DNA of 36,196 bases, taken from the NCBI GenBank assembly GCA_022749935.1, contig JAKIWQ010000012.1:1-36196 (forward strand). The letters run 5' to 3'. A model generated the notes under the pieces. It was not told where the DNA came from and did no database searches. It saw only the letters and a program-made list of their open reading frames with translations. A program made the position numbers and the translations under genes. Source of the stretch: Thermoplasmata archaeon (GTDB lineage: Archaea > Thermoplasmatota > Thermoplasmata > Lutacidiplasmatales > UBA184). Positions 13,651-15,302 of the stretch are shown one piece after another. Numbering within the stretch: the stretch's first letter is position 1; each line of letters opens with the position of its first letter.

Positions 13651-14649
13651 TCATGCCCCGGGGGGTCGCGCCGTGGGCTCCAAGCCGCGGGCGATCGCCT
13701 CGACGGTCGACCGCGGCGCGTCCGTCCGGAACCCTTCGGGACGGGCGTGGGTCGGCGCCATTCGAAATCCCCGACGCGCGAGCGCGTCCGCGAACGCGGT
13801 TCGAGCCGGGGGAAATGGGAGGTGCAGGGCGGCGGCGAGCTCGTTGGCTTCGTAGTAGAAGGGCACGTCGACGTCCACCTCCCCCCGGATCCGGTCGAGG
13901 AACTTCCGCGTGTCTTCGGGACGGGCGGCCGAGGTCGGTACGACCATCCGTCCGACCGCCGACGCGTCGAAGAGCCGTCCCAGCCACATGGGTCCATACG
14001 GCCCACGGTCGCCGAGGGAGGGTCCCGTCCAGCGGGCCGGATCGACCTCGTCGATCGGGTCGGGAGGAGTCGTCTCCGACCGCGAGGTGACCCGCAGATA
14101 CGCCCGTAGGTGGTGACCCCGCACGTACGCGACGAGCGGATGGAGGGCCCGGCTCCTTTCCTTCGCGATCCGGGCGAGGCGCGCGAGCAGGATTCGGAGG
14201 CCGCCCTCGGGACCGAGGCGCCCCCGAACGGGCCGACTCCCGTACAGCCGCTCGCAAGCGCCGGGTTGGACCCCGGCGAGGACCATGAGGTCCGTCGCCG
14301 TCACCGCGAGAATCCCTCCTTCCTGAACGGCGTCCATCGCCGTGGCGAGGAAGGGCAACGGCGAGCCGTACGGGTCGACGTCGACGTAGTCGAACGGCGC
14401 CTCGGGCGGAGCCAACCGGGCGTCCGCCTTCCGCACGAGCGCGCCCGAGACCCCGGAAGCGTTCTGCTCGAGGATCCCGGTCGCCGTCGGGTGGGACTCG
14501 GTGAGGAGAAACGAGGAGAATCGCCCGGTTTCGGCGAGGAGCCGGAGCCCCCGCGCGCCGGTGGCCGCGAGCATGTCCCACCCGCGGGCCCCACCCCCCG
14601 AGAGGAACGCGGTCGCCGCGGCGACTCCCAGGTCGCGGTCGACGGCCAT
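13651..14649 (-). CDS. trm1: tRNA (guanine26-N2)-dimethyltransferase Trm1; start codon problematic
   Basis: The enzyme methylates G26 of tRNA using S-adenosylmethionine. A SAM-binding segment DMLAATGARGLR (25-36) and the catalytic DVDPYGSPLPF loop (90-100) are clear, followed by the TATDL strand and the Trm1 C-terminal domain (AYLRVT and MWLGRLFD segments). ATG 14649 is the first conventional start, giving 332 residues, but homology clearly continues upstream in frame: codons 14745-14650 encode a normal Trm1 N-terminus including AVFYNPDMA and an EGAVDLLLP strand. That stretch has no ATG, GTG or TTG. The best candidate is GTC at 14745-14743, which overlaps the upstream TAG exactly where a TAGTG junction would be expected. 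The full protein would be about 364 residues, close to family size. Confidence 0.88.
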   Translation of the reverse strand: MAVDRDLGVAAATAFLSGGGARGWDMLAATGARGLRLLAETGRFSSFLLTESHPTATGILEQNASGVSGALVRKADARLAPPEAPFDYVDVDPYGSPLPFLATAMDAVQEGGILAVTATDLMVLAGVQPGACERLYGSRPVRGRLGPEGGLRILLARLARIAKERSRALHPLVAYVRGHHLRAYLRVTSRSETTPPDPIDEVDPARWTGPSLGDRGPYGPMWLGRLFDASAVGRMVVPTSAARPEDTRKFLDRIRGEVDVDVPFYYEANELAAALHLPFPPARTAFADALARRGFRMAPTHARPEGFRTDAPRSTVEAIARGLEPTARPPGA

Positions 14650-14744
14650 GTCCGGGTTGTAAAAGACCGCGGTCCGAGGTCGCGGTCCGGGTCCGGGCCG
14701 GGTCGGAGGAAGGAGGAGGTCGACCGCTCCCTCCCGGGCGCGGA

Positions 14745-15302
14745 CTAGTGGGATCGGCCCGTGATCAGATGGACGATCTTGAACGCCAGGAGGTTCTTGT
14801 TCACCGGGGTCACTTCGAGGAGTCGTAGTTCGTCCCTCCGACGGATGTCCTGGAGCAGCGGGTTCCGGGATTTCTTGTGGAGGGTCATGATGATCGACTT
14901 CTTGGCGTCGAGGGTGTCCATGACGCCCTTCGTGAACACCTCGCTCTCGACCTCCATCTTGCCGACCTCGTCGATGACGATCACGTCCGCCTCTTCGCGG
15001 GCCTGAGCCAGCGCCGCCGTACCGAGGCCCTCGAGCGCCGCGAGGCTCACGCCGTATCGCCCCGAGCGGACCCGGGACTTGAGCCCCTCATGGGCGAACA
15101 CCTCGTGCTCCTTCGTGATCCAGTTGGTGATCTGGAACCCGGCCCGACGCTGCTTCACGACGATCGGTTCCGTGACCATCCCACCGACCTTGACCCCCTC
15201 CTCCTCGAGAAGTTGGATGATGCGGAGCAGAGTCTGGGTCTTCCCCGACCCGGGGAGACCGGTGATCCCGATCTTCACCGGGGCGGAGAGGCGACGGGGC
15301 AT
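14745..15302 (-). CDS. THEP1-type nucleoside-triphosphatase (NTPase_1 family)
   Basis: The protein has 185 residues, typical for archaeal THEP1 NTPases. Walker A is GLPGSGKT (15-22) and Walker B is VIVIDEVGKME, the characteristic form of this family, followed by the IIMTLHKKSRNPLL segment. Members hydrolyse several NTPs; the cellular role is unclear, and the eukaryotic relative is human NTPCR. It starts at ATG 15302 and its TAG overlaps by one base the reading frame that continues into Trm1, suggesting the two are translated from one message. It is divergent from the HemK-like gene, with only 53 bases between start codons. Confidence 0.9.
   Translation of the reverse strand: MPRRLSAPVKIGITGLPGSGKTQTLLRIIQLLEEEGVKVGGMVTEPIVVKQRRAGFQITNWITKEHEVFAHEGLKSRVRSGRYGVSLAALEGLGTAALAQAREEADVIVIDEVGKMEVESEVFTKGVMDTLDAKKSIIMTLHKKSRNPLLQDIRRRDELRLLEVTPVNKNLLAFKIVHLITGRSH

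Follow-up and report, generated by a model that had tools for sequence, protein, structure and literature searches.

The trm1 gene in the Thermoplasmata DNA analyzed here is probably translated from an ACG codon located within the 3' end of the upstream gene, THEP1, in the −1 frame relative to THEP1 and led by a Shine-Dalgarno (SD) sequence. The conservation of this signal among related genomes is directly observed, and from it we infer translation from the ACG. The putative start signal sits within the final 31 codons of THEP1. The whole stretch of DNA analyzed (36,196 nucleotides) is referred to as the window, and the relevant features in the window are as follows:

14745..15302, minus strand: THEP1 NTPase gene, from the list of open reading frames, with an ATG start and a TAG stop at 14747-14745
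13651..14826, minus strand: trm1 as predicted from the ACG, 391 amino acids, with a Pfam TRM match
14745..14826, minus strand: out-of-phase (−1) THEP1/trm1 overlap of 82 nt, in which the trm1 frame is free of stops in 58 species
14835..14839, minus strand: GGAGG, the putative SD sequence of trm1, spelled by the THEP1 codons CGG AGG
14824..14826, minus strand: predicted ACG start of trm1, formed by the A of Leu CTA and the CG of Arg CGA of THEP1
14746..14748, minus strand: CTA codon overlapping the THEP1 stop, at the position of the GTG/TTG start in outgroups and the candidate start in a rival reinitiation reading
14743..14745, minus strand: GTC codon, the start in the original prediction, not conserved
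14647..14649, minus strand: first in-frame ATG, residue 60, the internal Met of the FYNPxM motif

All offsets are counted from the T of the THEP1 stop codon. On the minus strand, THEP1 ends in ...CAC TAG, and the Trm1 frame past this stop reads GTC CGC GCC CGG GAG GGA GCG GTC GAC CTC CTC CTT and, further down, GTC TTT TAC AAC CCG GAC ATG. Upstream of the THEP1 stop, the Trm1 frame extends for 114 codons without interruption. In agreement with the original prediction, no ATG, GTG, or TTG is present ahead of the conserved Trm1 N-terminus, in the stretch between the in-frame stop at offset −343 and the FYN motif. For comparison, a search of the genus covered 78 genomes, of which 57 had a Trm1 match; 54 of these 57 had parsable junctions, and G034 and G066 were partial. 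Among 80 named loci, L130, L137, and L168 had no junction because their contigs end too early, and L108 is a duplicate of G098. The 14 distant loci (L169 to L177 and L179 to L183) included a parsable gene pair only in L170, L172, L174, L180, and L181. Merging of duplicate junctions gave 66 distinct THEP1-trm1 junctions. G098, a canonical species, was added separately, and counts out of 66 or 58 precede this addition. The relatives are of the Lutacidiplasmatales type, a group described in the available text of PMC9287336, and the THEP1 matches among named genomes are Thermoplasmata metagenome-assembled genomes, including Candidatus Lutacidiplasma silvani AcS3-62 and UBA184.

The lack of a canonical start is shared by most of these relatives. 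No ATG, GTG, or TTG lies ahead of the EG motif in 54 of the 66 distinct junctions. Five junctions have Trm1 in another frame with a GTG at −8, three have an ATG at +41, and in another four a GTG stands alone at +8 or +11. We rejected a distant upstream canonical start, because the 54 genus-genome junctions contain no canonical codon in the trm1 frame at offsets from −8 to about −580. In 61 of the 66 junctions, Trm1 occupies the −1 frame, and the distances from the THEP1 stop to the FYN motif in these 61 are 83, 89, 92, 95, 98, or 143 nt. All of these values are 2 modulo 3, and, therefore, the Trm1 frame depends on a feature located at the THEP1 stop or ahead of it.

The original prediction had accounted for the gap by a GTC start at the TAGTC junction, coupling from THEP1, or an assembly error at 14743, and had named a functional start at ATG 14649 as the reading that would contradict it. 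The local sequence on its own speaks for the GTC, error, and ATG readings; considering the relatives, we give these three next to no chance. GTC is present at +2 in just 6 of the 54 junctions without a canonical start, while the others have ACC, GCG, ATC, AGC, GCC, ACG, GGC, GGA, GTT, AGT, or GAC at this position. Conservation of TAGTG had been proposed as a check; TAGTG or TGATG is found at this place in 0 of the 61 −1-frame junctions. An assembly error is ruled out by the same lack of a start in 54 related junctions. Because the +2 codon varies and 54 junctions share the lack of a start, neither an error nor a GTC start explains the gap. These observations confirm that the start gap of trm1 is real and not a matter of chance or assembly. 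As for ATG 14649, this codon encodes residue 60, which is invariant in 44 sequences and is located within the first long helix (residues 58-74) of the structural model, past two confident strands. We rejected it as the start because its use would remove both strands as well as the conserved EG...LLLP segment.

The intact Trm1 N-terminus that had been proposed from the window was borne out by profile alignment and predicted structure. A profile of 44 relatives aligned to residues 3-375 of Pyrococcus Trm1 (2dul) with an E value of 1.6e-69, indicating homology over the whole length at the level of sequence profiles. This alignment begins at query residue 27 and covers the 2dul stretch EGKAKILIP...VFYNPRMALNRD in the N-terminus. 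An AlphaFold model of the predicted Trm1 has a mean pLDDT of 91, with disordered residues 1-23 and confident strands at residues 28-32 and 35-39 in the N-terminal stretch. The window protein scores 208.8 bits against Pfam TRM (cut-off, 27) and 190.5 bits against TIGR00308, which is below the curated cut-off of 280.65 and yet the best family; automatic naming by TIGR00308 would fail. Judged by Pfam, the PDB profile, and gene order, the window protein is a divergent member of the Trm1 family and is named Trm1-like here. Archaeal Trm1, a tRNA (guanine-26-N2) dimethyltransferase (PF02005, TIGR00308; 2dul, 3axs), matches the window protein over its whole length and shares the EG...P...FYNPxM...RD N-terminus; the window protein differs from it by a predicted N-terminal extension encoded inside THEP1. 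Specifically, an ACG start would add 26 residues before the usual Trm1 start, with a predicted extension peptide such as (M)TPRSDPGEQEPPGVQDR. The upstream gene matches Pfam NTPase_1 (PF03266; 159.5 bits; cut-off, 23.9) and NCBIfam PRK13695 (185 bits; cut-off, 156).

We surveyed the starts of orthologs in 200-kb samples of eight species together with the window (102 families with 611 members), an approach that detects only cases with at least eight conserved codons before the first canonical codon. trm1 was the only one of the 102 families truly without a canonical start in the eight sampled genomes and the window. Two further families were flagged, but their true starts, which lie within or next to the upstream gene, carry an ATG or GTG. 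Group-wide use of odd starts was rejected as an explanation, since trm1 stands alone among the 102 families. Using ARAGORN on 30 tRNA loci of G028, a non-exhaustive set, we found no odd initiator tRNA; tRNA-Met with CAT was detected in two overlapping loci, L283 and L299.

Analysis of synonymous codon use along THEP1 revealed a conserved signal upstream of its stop. Codons −31 to −26 read CGG AGG GAY GAR YTA CGN. This sequence places GGAGG at −92 to −88, followed by 8 nt and an ACG in the Trm1 frame at −79. The codons involved are rare in the sampled genes: AGG accounts for 5.2% of all Arg codons, CTA for 2.1% of Leu codons, and TTA for 0.4%. Nevertheless, among the 58 species without a strong canonical start, AGG is used at THEP1 Arg −30 in 55, compared with at most 2 at 15 other Arg columns, and CTA/TTA is used at Leu −27 in 55, compared with at most 4 at 20 other Leu columns. 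Among the same 58 species, 55 have the ACG at −79 and 54 have the GGAGG. No near-cognate codon other than ACG (55 species) exceeds 30 of the 58 species at a single offset, the next being CTG at −1 (30 species). The spacing matches that of sampled canonical genes, in which the distance from GGAGG to the start has a mode of 8 (24 of 54). Moreover, the 16S rRNA tail in L268 and L270 reads GGATCACCTCCT, and its end, CACCTCCT, is complementary to the GGAGG at the usual spacing, as expected for an SD sequence. Based on these codon columns, THEP1 keeps the ACG beyond what synonymous drift would give. Thus, the suggestion that trm1 has a non-canonical start held up, while its place and codon did not: the candidate start is an ACG with an SD sequence, 79 nt upstream and within THEP1. 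In a scan of 104 families for columns with an SD sequence and an ACG, trm1 stood out clearly, with 8 of 9 members at a spacing of 8, and three other such columns were found in 3 of 5, 3 of 5, and 3 of 6 members.

Downstream of the ACG, as far as the THEP1 stop, the trm1 frame has 0 stops in 58 species compared to the 10.7 that codon use would predict. Directly upstream, the same frame carries a stop at −85 in 11 of the 58 species and at −130 in 19; where the −85 stop is present, the trm1 frame opens one codon ahead of the ACG. We note that the upstream region is also depleted of stops (58 observed versus 116 expected) and that part of the depletion from the ACG onward may be owed to codon-context bias. 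Conservation at wobble positions in the overlap is marginally higher compared to the whole gene (P = 0.039) and has a P value of 0.26 compared to codons −100 to −32.

Both signals are absent from species with a strong canonical start. GGAGG and ACG are missing in 8 of the 8 species with a strong canonical start (Fisher test, 2.9e-8, which ignores descent). The same applies to G098, in which Trm1 is in the other frame with a GTG at −8; with this species included, the signals are found in 0 of 9 canonical species (Fisher test, 5e-9). The four species with an isolated GTG retain both GGAGG and ACG. In a FastTree phylogeny, the eight canonical species form one clade. In a second tree, which includes G098, the canonical state changes three times and the ACG six times, and G098 is nested among ACG species, beside the ACG-bearing G022 (support, 90). 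This distribution suggests that canonical starts arose in two or three lineages, with both signals lost every time. Independent lineages are few, and sign and pairs tests on the tree gave values of >0.05. Because the independent events are too few for a pairs test to reach significance, the argument relies on how codons are conserved throughout the tree.

Three of the 58 species (L145, L151, and L161) lack the ACG at −79 as well as a nearby canonical start. In L145, GCG replaces ACG and GGAGG is retained, while both signals are gone in L151 and L161. The L151 sequence is from a 3.4-kb contig with a coverage of 1.86; here, the trm1 frame is open far upstream, with an ATG at −199 and a GTG at −181. 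L161 has an ACG at +2, and a GAGAGGG ends 7-8 nt before it, which looks like the same device moved to a new position.

In the scenario that these data point to, 30S subunits would bind the GGAGG site within the THEP1 message, Met-tRNAi would start Trm1 on the ACG, and 26 mostly disordered residues would thereby precede the Trm1 fold. For the order as a whole, the balance of the comparative data leans toward Trm1 being translated solely from the ACG, which would be kept by selection on THEP1 wobble bases and released once a canonical start evolved. If the ACG mutated to ATG, the CGN that encodes an invariant Arg of THEP1 would become TGN (Cys, Trp, or stop), and the start is therefore locked; dual coding is likely the reason for the ACG. 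In other Thermoplasmata, THEP1 and trm1 often form a GTGA or TTGA overlap, again with trm1 in the −1 frame, or an ATG lies nearby, and the CTR codon of the study group occupies the place of the outgroup GTG/TTG starts. The history may have been that the base at the start became C and that the internal SD sequence and ACG then took over.

The SD-led ACG start is the best-supported reading, and its main rival is termination-reinitiation, in which ribosomes that end THEP1 would restart at the overlapping CTG or CTA (CTGA, CTAG, or CTAA). CTG or CTA is located over the THEP1 stop in 61 of 61 junctions with Trm1 in the −1 frame, i.e., none of these has the ATG, GTG, or TTG of a −4-nt overlap. Homologous outgroup overlaps have GTG in L180, L003, and L025 and TTG in L174, L010, L011, and L014. 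In line with reinitiation, the 2dul alignment begins at the junction Leu with the first strand directly after it, and the third base of the final THEP1 codon is C in all 66 junctions (CAC in 62 and CGC in 4), while CAT is used at other His columns. However, CAC is also retained in the species with a GTG at −8, where CTG is outside the Trm1 frame, and the codon is CTA, two mismatches from AUG, in 26 of 54 junctions. More importantly, reinitiation leaves the conserved SD sequence and ACG, their loss in canonical species, and the stop-free frame unexplained, and we consider it unlikely as the route to Trm1. Counting against the ACG, the extension is disordered in the model and not needed by the Trm1 fold, and Pyrococcus Trm1 begins close to where the CTA codon lies. 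An SD-led ACG start and reinitiation at CTG/CTA could also operate together.

Programmed −1 frameshifting in THEP1, aided by the internal GGAGG, would give a THEP1-Trm1 fusion. Internal SD-like sequences stimulate −1 frameshifting in Escherichia coli dnaX, 61 of the 66 junctions place Trm1 in the −1 frame, and each indel between the stop and the FYN motif among these 61 preserves the frame. Against this, the sequence after GGAGG is GAR YTA CGN rather than an X XXY YYZ slippery heptamer, and no such heptamer was found before the THEP1 stop when codon columns −31 to −1 were read by eye. Because frameshifting would need neither the A at −79 nor a spacing of 8, we regard it as improbable (recoding in archaea is treated in the accessible part of PMC8211752). 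Similarly doubtful is that GGAGG...YTA acts as a rare-codon pause or RNA signal, with Trm1 starting elsewhere by an unspecified route. The rarity of AGG and CTA/TTA and the three species that do without the ACG at −79 would fit such a signal, but rare codons alone require neither the flanking CGG nor an A at the third Leu position at SD spacing, and GGAGG and YTA vanish just where canonical starts appear. Finally, C-to-U editing of the THEP1 mRNA could convert the ACG to AUG, the way in which chloroplasts create AUG starts from ACG according to the available portion of PMC9845219. Such editing would, however, alter a conserved THEP1 Arg codon and, in the case of CGA as in the window, create a stop. 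To our knowledge, no such mRNA editing occurs in archaea, and we consider this explanation extremely improbable.

The predicted SD-led ACG start of trm1 resembles several known systems in part. Short −4-nt overlaps with termination-reinitiation occur in archaea and bacteria (PMC10666635, as far as available). The THEP1-trm1 pair shares its operon order and its −1 frame with the GTGA/TTGA overlaps found in other Thermoplasmata; in contrast, trm1 has an 82-nt overlap, no canonical start at the stop, and its own putative SD sequence far upstream. ACG-initiated open reading frames in eukaryotes, plant viruses, and reporter mutants in the Chlamydomonas plastid likewise use a non-AUG ACG start, whereas trm1 is a chromosomal archaeal gene with an SD sequence. 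In adeno-associated virus, VP2 starts at an ACG. Rare bacterial non-AUG starts are found in infC and pcnB, which use ATT. As in these two, a single gene would have retained an unusual start by descent; unlike ATT, the trm1 start would be an ACG locked by dual coding with THEP1. In our literature search, which covered few subscription papers, no archaeal gene was reported to start at ACG. ACG is weak in E. coli, in which a set of codons including ACG has a relative efficiency of 0.1-1.5% (PMC6925171, as far as available), and the accessible section of PMC6237735 indicates that aIF1 in Sulfolobus favors discrimination against non-canonical starts.

If true, trm1 would be a prokaryotic chromosomal gene that naturally retains an ACG initiator, conserved in dozens of species of acid-soil archaea, and the THEP1-trm1 overlap would be an example of a gene locked into a poor start codon. 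A conserved archaeal ACG start would bear on how aIF1 and Met-tRNAi police start codons in the presence of a strong SD sequence. The species with an SD sequence and ACG, those that switched to GTG or ATG, and the three in-between species form a natural test set. In addition, gene finders restricted to ATG, GTG, and TTG would truncate or miss Trm1 in dozens of genomes.

Three further observations concern codon use and gene order in this region. The THEP1 Leu codon −24 (14817-14819) is CTC in 66 of 66 junctions, including those of canonical species; CTC makes up 59% of Leu codons in the sampled genes, and its use at this position is not accounted for by the start signal. At the position homologous to 14748-14750, CAT is found in 0 of 66 junctions, even though CAT makes up 50 of 250 other THEP1 His codons. 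The GTGA and TTGA overlaps in many Thermoplasmata suggest an old translational coupling of THEP1 and trm1. Elsewhere, the family G001|-1|119025, which we take to be csl4-like from its LPGEE motif, keeps a rare CTA/TTA Leu codon (CTAGTT) near its N-terminus in seven of eight species. We considered this family, with its conserved CTA column, as a second case and rejected it; its members have an ordinary conserved ATG further up.
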